This document shows, in pieces, positions 23,588-29,871 of a DNA stretch of 37,992 nucleotides; the first letter of the stretch is position 1; each line of letters starts with the position of its first letter. Position numbers and translations under genes: made by a program. The stretch comes from Deltaproteobacteria bacterium (GTDB lineage: Bacteria > Desulfobacterota > Desulfomonilia > UBA1062): contig JAKPDW010000085.1 of the NCBI GenBank assembly GCA_029552245.1, forward strand, positions 1 to 37,992, written 5' to 3'. Under the pieces are notes generated by a model, which was not told where the DNA came from, did not search any database, and was given only the letters and a program-made list of their open reading frames with translations.

Positions 23588-24919
23588 ATGCAGCCCGGCC
23601 CGATGCAGCCGCATCGCGAGACGGAGGGGAAGCCCCGGCGACAGGTGCTTGCGTGGGCGTTCTACGACTGGGGGAACTCCGCTTTCGCCACCACGGTCAT
23701 GGCCGGGTTCTTTCCCATCGTCTTCAAGGAATACTTCAGCGCCGGAGTGGAGGCGGCCCAGAGCACGGCAAGGCTGGGGTTCGCGAACTCAGCGGCGGGT
23801 CTCGCCGTCGCCGTTGCAGCGCCCTTTCTGGGCGCCGTCGCGGACAGGGCCTCGTCGAAGAAGCTCTTCCTGGCATGCTTCGCCGCCACGGGCGTCCTCT
23901 CGACCGTGGGGCTGTCGCTCGTCGGCATGGGGTCCTGGGTCCTCGCATGCACCCTCTACGGGCTGGGGCTCGCGGGGTTTCTCGGCGGGAACGTGTTCTA
24001 CGACTCTCTCCTGAAGCGCATCTGCTCAGAGGGCGAGACGGACCGCGTCTCGTCCTTGGGCTACGGGCTCGGCTACCTGGGAGGAGGTCTCCTCTTTGCG
24101 CTGAACGTGTGGATGCTCAGCAGCCCTTCATCCTTCCGCATGGCAGGGGCCCTGGATGCGGCCCGCTTCTCCTTCGTGGCCGTGGGCGTGTGGTGGGCCG
24201 TCTTCACCGTGCCCCTCCTGGCGTTCGTGAGGGAACCGGCACTGCCCGGCGTGAGAATCTCCGACGCGATCACGGGCGGTCTCGCCATGCTCCGTTCCAC
24301 CATGAGGGAAATCGCCCGCCTCAGGACGCTTCTGCTCTTCCTGACAGCATACTGGCTCTACATAGACGCCGTGGACACCATCATCGTGATGGCCGTGGAC
24401 TACGGCCTCTCGCTGGGTTTCGACCGCACGGACCTCGTCTCCGCCCTGCTCCTCGTCCAGTTCATAGGCTTCCCCTGCGCCATAGCCTTCGGCAGGCTCG
24501 GCGGGGTCGTCGGCACGAAGAGGGCGATCATCCTCGCGCTGTGCGTCTACCTGTTCGTGACACTCTGGGGCGCGTTCATCGAGACAAGAGGCGAGTTCTA
24601 CCTCATGGCGGCCCTCATCGGCACGGTGCAGGGGGGCGTGCAGGCGCTCTCGCGCTCTTTCTACGCGAGGCTCGTGCCAACGGGGAAGGAAGCCGAGTTC
24701 TTCGGTTTCTACAACATGATTGGAAAGTTCGCTTCCATCGTGGGCCCGGCCCTCGTGGCGCTCACCGTTCTCCTGGCCAGGGCGGCGGGGGCGCCGGGGC
24801 ACACGGCGCCTAGGTTCAGCATCGCGTCCATAGCCTTGCTCTTCATCGCGGGCGGCGCGGTGCTGCTGCTGGTGGACGAGGAGAGGGGCTCTCGGGAGAG
24901 GGGGATCCTGGAGGCCTGA
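23588..24919 (+). CDS. MFS transporter, UMF1 (Atg22-like) family
   Basis: This 443-residue inner-membrane protein has about 11-12 predicted helices. The N-terminal signature AWAFYDWGNSAFATTVMAGFFP is diagnostic for the UMF1/Atg22-like branch of the major facilitator superfamily. Further landmarks are APFLGAVADRASSKK (loop 2-3 motif), GNVFYDSLLKRI, and a late QALSRSFYARLVPTGKEAEFFGFY segment. Eukaryotic Atg22 releases amino acids from vacuoles; the bacterial substrate is not established. It follows the cyclophilin by three bases and is probably cotranscribed with it. No terminator is visible after it. Confidence 0.92.
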   Translation: MQPGPMQPHRETEGKPRRQVLAWAFYDWGNSAFATTVMAGFFPIVFKEYFSAGVEAAQSTARLGFANSAAGLAVAVAAPFLGAVADRASSKKLFLACFAATGVLSTVGLSLVGMGSWVLACTLYGLGLAGFLGGNVFYDSLLKRICSEGETDRVSSLGYGLGYLGGGLLFALNVWMLSSPSSFRMAGALDAARFSFVAVGVWWAVFTVPLLAFVREPALPGVRISDAITGGLAMLRSTMREIARLRTLLLFLTAYWLYIDAVDTIIVMAVDYGLSLGFDRTDLVSALLLVQFIGFPCAIAFGRLGGVVGTKRAIILALCVYLFVTLWGAFIETRGEFYLMAALIGTVQGGVQALSRSFYARLVPTGKEAEFFGFYNMIGKFASIVGPALVALTVLLARAAGAPGHTAPRFSIASIALLFIAGGAVLLLVDEERGSRERGILEA

Positions 24920-25281
24920 ACCTTTCAACCCGCTCGGCGTGTCCTGCCCGACGATCGTCCCCAAGATCCCCGGTACCGCCCGCGGCACGGGCAGGTTCGG
25001 GGCCAGGCTCCGTGTGCCCCCCGACGATCGTTGCCCGAGAACGGGCCCGCACGACGGTGACCAGCTCGACCTGGATCGGCTCCTCGATCCCTCTTCGACC
25101 GGCATGAAGCCTCCTATCCCTTCCGGGCAGCCCTCATGCGTACCGAAGAGCGAGCAATACCGGCCTTCAACCTCGCCCCTTCGCATCGCGCTCTCGAGAC
25201 CGAAGCCGGACCGAGAGATCTCGTGGCTTTCCATGCACACGCACAAGGGCTATGATACAGGGAAACACCGGGAGGTGCGGT
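24920..25281. other. Spacer with paired ACGATCGT palindromic repeats
   Basis: About 360 bases before the TRL-like lipoprotein. CCGACGATCGT occurs at about 24948-24958 and again at 25021-25031; each holds the palindrome ACGATCGT. A promoter candidate lies at 25228-25256. No gene is visible. Confidence 0.45.
25228..25256 (+). promoter_or_regulatory. Promoter candidate for the TRL-like lipoprotein
   Basis: TTTCCA (25228-25233) and TATGAT (25251-25256) are 17 bases apart, with four and five of six consensus matches. The start codon is 26 bases after the -10. Confidence 0.5.
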
Positions 25282-25593
25282 ATGAGAAAACGGGCTCTCA
25301 TCCTCATGCTGGCCGCATCCGTGTGCCTGACGGCCACAGGTTGCGCCATCCTGTACAACGATTTCAGGACACCCCTTCCCTCCCTCAACGTGCAGCCGGG
25401 GACGGAGGCCAGGATCCACGTGGGCTCGTCTTCCTGCACGTCCTACGTGTGGATGGTCACGGTGGGGGACTGCAGCGTGGAAGCGGCGATGAAGAACGGG
25501 AACATCTCCAAGATCCACCACGTGGACGCCGACATTAAGAGCTACTTCCTCGGCATCTACACGAAGTTCACCACCGTGGTCTACGGGGAGTGA
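25282..25593 (+). CDS. TRL-like family lipoprotein
   Basis: This 103-residue lipoprotein starts MRKRALILMLAASVCLTATG, with the lipidated cysteine in the ATGC box near residue 21. The mature part, with GSSSCTSYVWMVTVGDCSVEAAMKNGNISKIHHVD and a C-terminal YTKFTTVVYGE, matches the TRL-like family. That family was first noted near tRNA loci and its function is unknown. The two cysteines of SSSC and GDC could form a disulfide. GGGAGG lies six bases before the ATG. The gene is monocistronic, with its own promoter and a convergent neighbour. Confidence 0.85.
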   Translation: MRKRALILMLAASVCLTATGCAILYNDFRTPLPSLNVQPGTEARIHVGSSSCTSYVWMVTVGDCSVEAAMKNGNISKIHHVDADIKSYFLGIYTKFTTVVYGE

Positions 25594-25804
25594 GGGGGAG
25601 TCTTCCCGGGGGCGCATGCCCGCCGGCAGGCCCTCGGTGACCGTCGAACCCGGCCGACCGGCATGCACGGGCGCCGGGATCGGGGGACCGCACACGGCCC
25701 CCTGCCTCGGCGCCTGGGCATGGATCGCGAGGCTTGCCGGCACTCGTGGCTGGGTCAAGCAACGGAGGCGGCGTGGCCGGGGCCCCAGAGAAGCCGCACC
25801 CTCG

Positions 25805-25821
25805 CGCCCCGGCATGGGGCG
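25805..25821. terminator. Short GC hairpin between convergent genes
   Basis: CGCCCC (25805-25810) and GGGGCG (25816-25821) pair perfectly around five bases. It lies just past the phosphofructokinase stop codon on the minus strand. On the plus strand it is followed by TCTTA. It is a weak candidate for a transcript end. Confidence 0.3.
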
Positions 25822-25833
25822 TCTTAGCGTGAG

Positions 25834-26931
25834 CTACAGGATGGTGCGCTTGCCGTTGTAGCGCTCCACGTCGTAGTACTTGTCCACGTCGACGAGCCTG
25901 AGGCGGTCTATGACCTCCTTCATGGGCACCGTGGTGATCTCGCCGTGGAGGAAGCTCACCATCCTGCCGAAGTCCTCGTTCACGATCATGTCGACAGCGG
26001 CGATCCCGAACCAGCGTGCCATGAGCCTGTCCCTCGCCGAAGGCGAACCGCCCCTCTGCAGGTGGCTCAGGTTCACGTACCTAGACTCGAGACCGGTCCT
26101 CTTCTGGATCTCGTCGGAGATGTAGGCCGCGATCCCCCCCAAGGAGCGGTGGCCGAACTCGTCCACCCTGTCGTCCTTGTAGAACTCCTGGGTTCCACCC
26201 ACCTTGGCCCCCTCCGAGACCACGATGATGCTGTACTGGACCTCCCTGCCCCTCCGTTCCTGCAGGAGCTCGCATATGCGTTCCATGGTGAAGGGCACCT
26301 CAGGGATGAGGATGATGTATGCGCCGCTGCACTCCCCGCCGTGAAGCGCGAGCCACCCCGCATGCCTGCCCATGGTCTCCACCACGAAGATCCTGTTGTG
26401 GGAGCCGGCCGTTGTCCTGAGCCTGTCTATCTCCTCCATGATCACGTTCACCGCCGAGTCGAACCCGAGGGAGTACTCGGTCCCCACGAGGTCGCCGTCG
26501 ATGGTCTTGGGTATACCGACCGTCCTGACGCCGCGGCGGTGGAGCTTGTAGGCCACGCCGAGGGTGTCCTCGCCACCGATGGCGACGATCACGTCTATGC
26601 CGAGCTTCCTGATGTTCTCGATGACCTGGTCCGAGCGGTCCTTCTGGGGGTTGAACGGGTTGGTCCTCGACGTGCCCAGGTTGGTGCCGCCGTAACGGTC
26701 CCAGGTGCGGACGACCTCCTCGTCGAGGTGCATGGTGTGCCTGGCAACGCTCTCCGGGTCGTCGGGGTCTACGTACACGAGACCCTTCCACCCTTCCCTG
26801 ATGCCCACCACCTCGCACTTGAACCCCCTCTTCTTCTCGAGCACAGGGTCAAGCGCGGTCTTCGTCACCCACTTGATCGCCCCGTTCAGCCCGGGGCAGT
26901 CTCCGCCTCCCGTCAAAACCGCTATCCTCAT
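25834..26931 (-). CDS. 6-phosphofructokinase, pyrophosphate-dependent type by key residues
   Basis: This 365-residue enzyme phosphorylates fructose 6-phosphate at carbon 1. The N-terminal LTGGGDCPGLN is the family nucleotide/phosphate motif. The residues that set the phosphoryl donor are Asp122 (GGEDT) and Lys142 (IPKTIDGDL). These correspond to E. coli Gly104 and Gly124, with the same 20-residue spacing. Aspartate plus lysine is the pattern of PPi-dependent enzymes, which are reversible and spare ATP. GGEDTLGVA also matches the actinobacterial PPi-type clade. TIDGD replaces the usual TIDND. The start at 26931 follows GGAGGG by nine bases. It shares a divergent control region with the deacetylase-fold gene. 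Confidence 0.9.
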   Translation of the reverse strand: MRIAVLTGGGDCPGLNGAIKWVTKTALDPVLEKKRGFKCEVVGIREGWKGLVYVDPDDPESVARHTMHLDEEVVRTWDRYGGTNLGTSRTNPFNPQKDRSDQVIENIRKLGIDVIVAIGGEDTLGVAYKLHRRGVRTVGIPKTIDGDLVGTEYSLGFDSAVNVIMEEIDRLRTTAGSHNRIFVVETMGRHAGWLALHGGECSGAYIILIPEVPFTMERICELLQERRGREVQYSIIVVSEGAKVGGTQEFYKDDRVDEFGHRSLGGIAAYISDEIQKRTGLESRYVNLSHLQRGGSPSARDRLMARWFGIAAVDMIVNEDFGRMVSFLHGEITTVPMKEVIDRLRLVDVDKYYDVERYNGKRTIL

Positions 26932-26974
26932 GGTAAGGTTCCCTCCGATCGGAGTGATGTGTCGGCATCCAGGC

Positions 26975-27003
26975 TTCACAGCCTCCCGTGCGACCATTAT
27001 AAT
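26975..27003 (+). promoter_or_regulatory. Strong promoter for the deacetylase-fold gene, sharing a symmetric -10
   Basis: TTCACA (26975-26980) and TATAAT (26998-27003) are 17 bases apart: five and six of six consensus matches. This is among the best promoters in the window. The -10 lies inside the palindrome ATTATAAT (26996-27003), which serves as -10 on both strands. Confidence 0.65.
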
Positions 27004-27023
27004 CTCACTGAACATCTCGGCAA
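26996..27023 (-). promoter_or_regulatory. Divergent promoter for phosphofructokinase
   Basis: On the minus strand, TTGCCG (27023-27018) and TATAAT (27001-26996) are 16 bases apart. The -10 overlaps the plus-strand -10 in the palindrome ATTATAAT. The start codon of the phosphofructokinase gene is about 65 bases downstream. Confidence 0.5.
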
Positions 27024-27105
27024 GTCGCTTGTGGAAATTGAGCGCCGGGCGCGGGCGGTCCAGGTCTGGACGACATCAGCCCGCGCACAGGGACGGGGGG
27101 ATCTC

Positions 27106-27861
27106 ATGAAGGTGGTGTTCCACGAGGATTTCTACCGGCACTACACATCCGACCCTGCGGCCGAGCCGGGGAGGCTCGAGGCGGTGATGGAGGCGATCGC
27201 CGGCAGGGTCGAGCTCATCGAACCGGAGCCTGCGGCCCTGGAAGACATCCAGGCCGTCCACACCGAGGCCCACATCCAGCACATCAAGCGCATAGGGCTC
27301 CACGAGATCGCCTCGCTGGCGGCAGGGGGTGCGATCAAGGCCGCGGTCACGGGCATGGAGGAACCCTGCTTCGCCCTCATCCGTCCGCCCGGCCACCATG
27401 CATCGGCGAACACGGCGTGGGGGTTCTGCTTCTACAACAACATGGCTGTGGCCATCGAGCGCCTCAGGCGCGAGGGGAAGATAGAACGGGCGCACATCCT
27501 CGACTTCGACCTCCACTTCGGGGACGGCACGGTGAACATCCTGGGCAGGAAGGGCTACGTGACCATCCACAACCCCGAATCCCACGAGAGGGCGTCCTAT
27601 CTCAAGGAAGTGGAGGAGCGCCTTGCAGTCGCCGAGGCCGACGTGTTCGCCGTCTCCGCGGGCTTCGACAACCACGAGCAGGACTGGGGGGGCCTCCTCG
27701 CCACGGACGACTACCGGGTGATGGGCGCCATGGTGAGGGAGGCGGCGCTCAAGAGGGGCGCCGGGCTCTTCGCCATCCTGGAAGGAGGCTACAACCACCG
27801 GGTGCTCGGCTCGAACGTGCTCGCGCTCATCGAGGGCATGGAGCTCGGGGGACAGGGCTGA
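27106..27861 (+). CDS. Histone-deacetylase-fold family protein (small form)
   Basis: This 251-residue member of the arginase/deacetylase-fold family is predicted to remove acetyl groups from small amines or proteins using zinc. Visible are the RPPGHHAS histidine pair (His97-His98), zinc ligands Asp135 and His137 in DFDLHFGDGT, the third ligand Asp188 in SAGFDNHEQD, and catalytic Tyr229 in LEGGYN. The second histidine of the usual DVHHGNGT is Phe here. At 251 residues it is shorter than typical bacterial deacetylases (300-370) and has a compact N-terminus. The start follows GACGGGGGG. It is divergent from phosphofructokinase, so the two may be co-regulated. Confidence 0.88.
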   Translation: MKVVFHEDFYRHYTSDPAAEPGRLEAVMEAIAGRVELIEPEPAALEDIQAVHTEAHIQHIKRIGLHEIASLAAGGAIKAAVTGMEEPCFALIRPPGHHASANTAWGFCFYNNMAVAIERLRREGKIERAHILDFDLHFGDGTVNILGRKGYVTIHNPESHERASYLKEVEERLAVAEADVFAVSAGFDNHEQDWGGLLATDDYRVMGAMVREAALKRGAGLFAILEGGYNHRVLGSNVLALIEGMELGGQG

Positions 27862-28308
27862 CGCAGGGTTCGAGCACGCAGCGACGGCCAAGGGCGCCTG
27901 GATCCGTGCGAGCCGGCCCCGCGTCCCGTCCCCGAGAGGGCTCGGGCCTCGCGGAACGCCCGGGGTTGGATGCGGTGCAGGAGATCCAGGCCTTCTCGGG
28001 CGGTGGGGCGCGCCGTTGTCGGCCGGCAGCCTCGACAGGCCGCCCACGCACCGGCCCTCCACGGCGATCCAGGCTCTCGAGCGTGCCGTTGCATCGAGGG
28101 CGCCGGCCGTGCACTTCGTGTTTGCATTCGGGCGAGTCCTGCCCCATAACTACTCTCACCGGTACGACCGGGCTCAAGAAGAGCCCGCTAAAGGCATATC
28201 AGCCGGAGGGGCCGACACGTCGTACCGGGGGTACGGGCGGGGACGAGAAGAAAGCCGGGCGGCCCATACGCCCGACGAAATCCATGGTGTTGTAAGGGGA
28301 GGAGTTCC
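27862..28308. other. Spacer with promoter and hairpin-rich leader before nnr
   Basis: About 450 bases without a gene. The promoter candidate at 28122-28150 would start RNA near 28157. The roughly 150-base leader then contains three hairpins: 28169-28187, 28221-28235 and about 28257-28277. The first half of the spacer shows nothing recognisable. Confidence 0.45.
28122..28150 (+). promoter_or_regulatory. Promoter candidate for nnr
   Basis: TTGCAT (28122-28127) and CATAAC (28145-28150) are 17 bases apart, with three and four of six matches. It lies in an AT-rich patch and implies a long structured leader. Confidence 0.4.
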
Positions 28309-29871
28309 ATGAAGGTGAGCACCGTCGCCGAGATGAGGGCCATGGACAGGCAGGCGCAGGAACGCTACGGCATACCGGAGACGATCCTCATGGAGAACGC
28401 CGGGAGCGCGTCCTTCGAGGCCATGAGAAGAGCATACGGCGTTCGGGGGAAGAACGTGCTGGTGGTGGCCGGGCCCGGCAACAACGGAGGGGACGGCTTC
28501 GTCGTCGCGCGGAGGGTCGTCTCGGCGGGCGGAGAGGCCCGCGTGCTGGTCGTGGGCGACCCCCAGAGGTACCAGGGCTCGGCCAAACTCAACCTCGACA
28601 TACTCAGAAAGACCGGCGTCGCCGTGTCCGTGTGCGGCAGCGCGGCAACCGTGCTCGAGGAAGCGGGGGCCTGCGGCGTTATCGTGGATGCCCTGTTCGG
28701 GACGGGGCTGGCGAGGCCCGTGGAGGGTCTCCACCGGGAGGTGATCGATGCGGTGAACGAGTGCGGGAAACCGGTGGTGAGCCTGGACATCCCCTCGGGT
28801 ATCAACGGCGACACGGGCCAGGTCATGGGAAGGGCCGTCAGGGCATCCATCACCGTGACCTTCGGCCTGCCCAAGCCAGGCAACCTCCTCATGCCGGGCG
28901 CGGCATGGTGCGGGCGCCTGGTCGTCTCCCACATATCCTTTCCGCCGGAACTCTACGACGACCCGAGGATCCCCATTTCCATAAACGAGCCGTTGCTGCC
29001 GCCCGTTCGCGACCCCGACGGGCACAAGGGCGACTTCGGCGAGGCGCTCTTCATCGCCGGCGCCAAGGGGTACTACGGTGCGCCGTGCTTCGCCGCGCTG
29101 TCTTTCATGAAGGCAGGGGGCGGCTACGCAAGGCTCGCCGCACCCTCGTCCGTGATCCCCTTCATCGCGACCGTCTCGCCCGAGATCGTGTTCCACCCCA
29201 TGGCCGAGACCGACTCCTCGAGCATCTCGGCAAGGAACAAGACGAGGCTGCTGGAGCTGGCCGAGCGGGCCGACTTCGTGGTCATGGGCCCCGGCGTATC
29301 CCTCGACGAGGAGACCGCCTCGCTCGTGAGAGAGCTGGCGGGCCGCATGAGGAAGCCCCTCCTGATAGACGGGGACGGCATCACCGCCGTGTGCGGCGAC
29401 ACCAGTTGCATCTCGGGCCGCACCTCGCCGACCGTCATCACCCCTCACCTCGGCGAGATGTCGAGGCTCACCGGGAAGCCGGTGGAACAGATAGAGAGGG
29501 ACAGGATTGCGGCTCTCAGAGAGGCTGCGGGGTCCCTGAAGGCCACGATCGTGCTCAAGGGCGCCCACAGTCTCATCGGGCACCCGGACGGTCGGGTCGT
29601 GGTCAACCTGAGCGGCAACCCGGGCATGGCGACGGCGGGCAGCGGGGACGTCCTCACCGGGACGATCGCGGCCATGTTCGGGCTCGGGCTTCTCTTCGAC
29701 GACGCGGTTCACGCAGGGGTCTTCCTCCACGGCGCAGCCGGGGACCTCGCCGCATCGTCCAAGGGGCAGGACGGGATCACCGCGAGGGACATCATGGAGG
29801 CGCTGCCCGAGGCCGTGAGACTTCACCGGGGAGGCGACCTGGCGAGCCGCTACCTGCCCGAGGTCATCTGA
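28309..29871 (+). CDS. nnr: Bifunctional NAD(P)H-hydrate repair enzyme (epimerase plus dehydratase)
   Basis: This 520-residue fusion repairs hydrated NADH and NADPH. The N-terminal epimerase domain (about 1-210, NnrE/YjeF-N) shows MDRQAQERYGIPETILMENAG, GPGNNGGDGFVVAR and DIPSGINGDTG. The C-terminal dehydratase domain (about 225-515, NnrD, ribokinase-like fold) shows GHKGDFGEALFIAGAKGYYGA, a VTPHLGEMSRLTG-like segment (VITPHLGEMSRLTG), and NPGMATAGSGDVLTG with the catalytic aspartate. Length and order match the E. coli protein. GGGGAGGAG lies six bases before the ATG. It has no close partner gene. Confidence 0.95.
   Translation: MKVSTVAEMRAMDRQAQERYGIPETILMENAGSASFEAMRRAYGVRGKNVLVVAGPGNNGGDGFVVARRVVSAGGEARVLVVGDPQRYQGSAKLNLDILRKTGVAVSVCGSAATVLEEAGACGVIVDALFGTGLARPVEGLHREVIDAVNECGKPVVSLDIPSGINGDTGQVMGRAVRASITVTFGLPKPGNLLMPGAAWCGRLVVSHISFPPELYDDPRIPISINEPLLPPVRDPDGHKGDFGEALFIAGAKGYYGAPCFAALSFMKAGGGYARLAAPSSVIPFIATVSPEIVFHPMAETDSSSISARNKTRLLELAERADFVVMGPGVSLDEETASLVRELAGRMRKPLLIDGDGITAVCGDTSCISGRTSPTVITPHLGEMSRLTGKPVEQIERDRIAALREAAGSLKATIVLKGAHSLIGHPDGRVVVNLSGNPGMATAGSGDVLTGTIAAMFGLGLLFDDAVHAGVFLHGAAGDLAASSKGQDGITARDIMEALPEAVRLHRGGDLASRYLPEVI

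Follow-up and report, generated by a model that had tools for sequence, protein, structure and literature searches.

A candidate bidirectional promoter with a shared -10 region between divergent phosphofructokinase and deacetylase genes of an uncultured deltaproteobacterial lineage

The divergent gene pair and its neighbourhood

Two genes diverge from a 174-bp intergenic spacer within the window, the whole 37,992-nucleotide stretch of DNA that was analysed (65% G+C), and such a spacer between divergent genes is the usual setting of chromosomal bidirectional promoters. An initial annotation had named the pair as a phosphofructokinase and a deacetylase-fold protein, which matches to PF00365 and PF00850 confirm. 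The features considered below are as follows.

25834-26931, minus strand: phosphofructokinase, 365 aa, with donor motifs GGEDT and PKTID (PF00365, E 7.5e-95; ATG at 26931)
26975-26980, plus strand: TTCACA, putative -35 of the deacetylase-directed promoter, 17-bp spacer (promoter scan; same TTCACA-17-TATAAT in relatives G002 and G004)
26996-27003, no strand assigned: palindrome ATTATAAT, putative shared -10 region, plus-strand box 26998-27003 and minus-strand box 27001-26996 (scans and conservation in 16 spacers)
27016-27023, minus strand: TTGCCGAG, comprising TTGCCG, putative -35 of the phosphofructokinase-directed promoter, and an invariant AG (TTRCCGAG in 16 of 16 spacers)
27033-27041, minus strand: A+T-rich block upstream of the minus-strand -35 (about -53 to -45), presumably acting like an UP element (columns -18 to -10 are conserved in the anchored alignment)
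27106-27861, plus strand: compact zinc-dependent deacetylase, 251 aa, histone-deacetylase fold (PF00850, E 3.1e-38; ATG at 27106)

The phosphofructokinase shares GGEDTLG and PKTID with its close orthologues of the order. PPi-dependent members of the family are marked by Asp in the GGDD/GGED motif and by the Lys of PKTxD, and these phosphoryl-donor motifs, GGEDT and PKTID, support the PPi type that had been proposed for the enzyme. Its closest NCBIfam model, PFK_mixed (TIGR02483), scored 384.6 bits and stayed below the cut-off of 430.55, while the general model PRK03202, named ATP-dependent, was passed (339 vs 253). A perfect palindrome, CTCCGATCGGAG (26943-26954), overlaps the ribosome-binding site of this gene and was not seen in the relatives' spacers.

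The predicted deacetylase, compared by alignment to HDAC6 and one bacterial HDAC, retains RPPGHHA, D-x-H (DFDLH), SAGFD and GGY (EGGY), with the metal ligands and the catalytic HH pair of a zinc-dependent histone-deacetylase fold intact. Few residues separate DxH and SAGFD compared with known HDACs, and none of the NCBIfam models matches the 251-aa protein. Inspection of the spacers led us to reject the idea that the deacetylase leader encodes a conserved peptide, as such a peptide was seen in part of genus g4 only.

Counting the window's own genome, 16 of 24 genomes of the order retain the divergent pair. Eighteen genomes have an orthologue of the phosphofructokinase; in G008 the two genes lie on different contigs, and G005 has no deacetylase. 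A same-genus genome that is 98% complete (G001) is without orthologues of both genes, possibly through joint loss. Outside the order, 80 related loci held no divergent pair, and in L103, the sole one among them with both genes, the two converge. Where the contig of a relative reaches, the pair is found together with its neighbours, an Atg22-like transporter and an NAD(P)HX repair enzyme (transporter, phosphofructokinase, deacetylase, repair enzyme; 23588-29871 in the window), and in some relatives insertions separate the deacetylase from the repair enzyme. Because the pair sits in this longer block, all four genes of which are conserved, we rejected its conservation as proof of co-regulation, and the joint control suggested by the initial annotation is weakened and not established.

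The octamer and its two putative promoters

The octamer ATTATAAT carries TATAAT on both strands at precisely the bases first assigned to it, and the two boxes overlap by 4 bp within it. It is found a single time in the window, where dinucleotide shuffles lead one to expect 0.02 copies, and seven times in the whole genome (3.27 Mb), against one copy of a backward-read control. Its symmetry is cheaper than it looks: because TATAAT is nearly self-complementary, a perfect minus-strand box already gives four of six matches on the plus strand, and two extra bases suffice. Another copy, around position 2001 of locus L008 (G000:C32:57843), has a same-strand TTATAAT roughly 17 bp upstream and plus-strand open frames downstream. 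No RNA family of Rfam was matched, and no plasmid relatives were found.

A scan for the sigma-70 consensus between 25500 and 28500 returned exactly two sites, where 0.3 were expected. These are TTCACA(26975)-17-TATAAT on the plus strand, with 11 of 12 consensus matches, and TTGCCG(27023)-16-TATAAT on the minus strand, with 10 of 12, so that both hexamers and spacings of the initial annotation were found again. When both strands were required at one octamer, the spacer exceeded all 300 of 300 dinucleotide shuffles (p 0.003). A two-sided score that allows any overlap of the two boxes gave 12.7 here and at most 10.0 in 21 other divergent spacers, all taken from 400 kb sampled from this genome. 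The sampled spacers do not include the window's own, since the crude gene finder was misled here by a spurious long ORF; a 638-aa open frame (25945-27861, plus strand) that crosses the phosphofructokinase gene in antisense and continues in frame into that of the deacetylase is a trap for simple gene finders.

As computed from the sequence, transcripts would start at 26989 on the minus strand (A) and at 27010 on the plus strand (G), the positions given in the initial annotation, 21 bp apart and with a box offset of -2. Two upstream in-frame ATGs of the phosphofructokinase, at 27015 and 26997, were rejected as starts because, placed within the promoter or upstream of it, they could not be part of an mRNA that begins at 26989.

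Conservation in the spacers of the order

We aligned the spacers of 16 pair-bearing genomes, anchored on TTRCCGAG, which as relatives are non-independent samples. Across the order, the spacers retain the promoter directed at the phosphofructokinase (TTRCCGAG, about 14 bp, TATAAT); TTGCCG-16-TATAAT facing left, either as such or with one mismatch in the -10, occurs in 13 of the 16 spacers (TATAAT, TATTAT or TATCAT). The exact palindrome is present in only six (G000, G002, G004, G011, G016 and G018). It is degenerate throughout genus g4 (ATTATATT, ATGATATT) and is lost in same-genus G003 (ATAATAAT), where the pair is still present. The “perfectly symmetric” octamer of the initial annotation is therefore not the conserved entity. 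That annotation had held that loss of the palindrome from close relatives keeping the pair would count against it; G003 shows such a loss, yet a shared -10 region persists in degenerate form.

The most informative column is T27003, position 6 of the rightward -10 and outside the leftward box, which is T in 15 of the 16 spacers (1.8 bits; the background mean is 0.48). Its neighbour, likewise outside the minus-strand box, drifts (0.54 bits). The conservation of T27003 is the best evidence that selection may act on the rightward box too. In G008, one case of a phosphofructokinase without an adjacent deacetylase, the conserved A that pairs with T27003 likewise occurs upstream of the phosphofructokinase, and given this the column may serve the left-facing promoter.

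The rightward -35 is less constant. TTCACA at 17 bp is limited to three of the four genus members, G003 being the exception, and rightward sites elsewhere take other forms, such as TTTACA-18-TATAAT in G011 and TCAACA-16-TATAAT in G018. Two-sided sites exceed 300 of 300 shuffles in G000, G002, G004, G011 and G018 (two genera; p 0.003 each), and the last four of these have the site where the window has it, 20 bp away from the conserved CTCGG. For most members of genus g4, the score of the right-facing promoter does not rise above that of shuffles.

These observations bear on what we regard as the foremost alternative, though an unlikely one, in which only the phosphofructokinase-directed promoter is used. 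The plus-strand TATAAT would then simply follow from TATAAT being nearly symmetric, rightward RNA would be incidental, and the deacetylase would depend on a weaker, nearer promoter. This would suit a left-facing promoter that is order-wide beside a right-facing -35 that is unconserved, an invariant TTRCCGAG on the left-facing side, and the presence in G003 (TTGCAC-16-TATTAT) and G012 of another promoter-like site nearer the deacetylase. It sits poorly with the optimal 17-bp spacing of TTCACA in three members of the genus, with T27003 in 15 of 16 spacers and with the recurrence of strong two-sided sites in genus g8, and the window's own spacer has no good alternative plus-strand promoter.

TTRCCGAG itself is invariant in all 16 spacers and runs two bases past the -35 hexamer, and it is unlike TTGACA, the prevailing -35 of the genome in a small sample. 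The element goes with the phosphofructokinase promoter: deacetylase orthologues located away from this phosphofructokinase all lack CTCGGYAA and its complement in the upstream stretch examined, which reaches up to 300 bp in nearly every case, and a related motif, TTACCG...TGATCAAA, is retained upstream of the unlinked phosphofructokinase of G008. A role as a deacetylase leader element was rejected on the first of these grounds. A TTRCCGAG regulon was also rejected after pattern searches of the window's own genome and the 24 genomes of the order, in which matches to TTRCCGAGNTGATC elsewhere lie almost all in coding frames. G017 has one intergenic sequence that resembles the element (TTGCCGAGATGTTCATATGATTATAAT, L214), and none of its neighbours is shared.

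It is conceivable, if improbable, that the region is mainly an operator, where a transcription factor on TTRCCGAG and its flanks picks the orientation of the polymerase and so switches the two genes in opposite senses. The invariance of the element, extending past the hexamer and in spite of the genome's preference for TTGACA, speaks for this reading. Against this, no second promoter copy was found in the genome and no regulon, a neighbouring regulator gene is absent, and TTRCCGAG is without dyad symmetry. Still more speculative, and a shade less probable again, is a regulator dedicated to this single target, which would bind TTRCCGAG, set the orientation of the polymerase and so switch PPi-dependent glycolysis/gluconeogenesis against protein or amine (de)acylation lineage-wide. 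That the octamer is a chance AT-rich string with no promoter function can be dismissed as extremely improbable: TATAAT-like boxes can occur randomly, but the expectation for the window is far below one copy and the footprint is conserved at exactly these columns across the order.

A proposed polymerase site facing both ways

We directly observe the sequence elements, their excess over chance, the conservation of the left-facing promoter and that of the final T of the rightward box. The reading that we consider likely is a shared-(-10) bidirectional housekeeping promoter of the sigma-70 type between the two genes. T27003 in 15 of 16 spacers and the strong both-strand promoters recurring in two genera make it the best one, and the claim of the initial annotation that one -10 region may serve promoters both ways is supported by the same T27003 conservation and by the two-sided sites that outscore shuffles. 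The lack of a conserved right-facing -35 beyond three genus members speaks against it. With a spacer of only 174 bp, the deacetylase promoter should itself lie within the spacer.

We propose a model where RNA polymerase takes one and the same -10 region from both sides. When oriented leftward, it would use TTGCCG, the A+T-rich upstream block and TATAAT (27001-26996) to make phosphofructokinase mRNA from about 26989; facing right, it would use TTCACA and TATAAT (26998-27003) to make deacetylase mRNA from about 27010. We infer actual transcription, these start positions, exclusion and any regulation. The two orientations would be physically exclusive, and the effect on output would depend on how strongly each side is used.

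Bacterial bidirectional promoters with a shared -10 element were reportedly described by Warman et al. 2021 in Nat Microbiol (cited in PMC10268837). Promoters of this kind with overlapping -10 elements, which the initial annotation called known in bacteria, are well documented between divergent genes (PMC12825309, PMC10268837). Such promoters are defined by opposite-strand starts 7-25 bp apart (PMC10268837), with preferred distances of 18 bp, the commonest (reciprocal -7/-11), and of 10 and 23 bp, with small variations (PMC12825309). The present site resembles them in having one -10 region for both strands between divergent genes, which by the overlap of its boxes would admit polymerase in one orientation only, and in a predicted start distance of 21 bp, which falls inside 7-25 bp and is like the 10-23 bp of E. 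coli divergent pairs (PMC12825309). It differs from the commonest form, in which -7 and -11 coincide at 18 bp, having full TATAAT boxes on both strands instead. Both -35 elements are recognisable here, with 11 of 12 and 10 of 12 matches over both boxes, and the lineage is an uncultured deltaproteobacterial one. Several of the E. coli pairs encode their own regulator (PMC12825309), whereas neither gene of the window pair does and none is adjacent.

Expression in competition, as first suggested for the two genes, does not follow from a shared -10 region. In five E. coli cases, at basal activity, output in one direction did not rise when the other was lost, and interference was seen only once one direction had been made strong or activated (PMC12825309). 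Because both promoters here are close to consensus, interference would be more plausible than at weak promoters.

UBA1062 is a family name in class Desulfomonilia, whose members are predicted to be syntrophic degraders of butyrate and long-chain fatty acids (PMC13248872), and the window's family is presumably this one. Syntrophs have abundant metabolite-driven acyl-lysine, and the deacylases discussed so far are sirtuins (PMC9676460). A zinc-dependent deacylase would fit such a setting; nothing ties it to the phosphofructokinase, and the pairing of the two enzymes matters only if joint control is true.

Beyond the enzymes themselves, the site is a well-supported candidate of an already known bacterial promoter type, with support from its evolution, and would offer a clean two-sided example of a shared -10 region outside model bacteria that is evolutionarily traceable. 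As T27003 serves the rightward box only and A26996 the leftward only, each direction could be disabled separately and competition tested directly. The comparison also illustrates the evolution of such a promoter in this order, with the leftward half fixed across it and the rightward -35 turning over.
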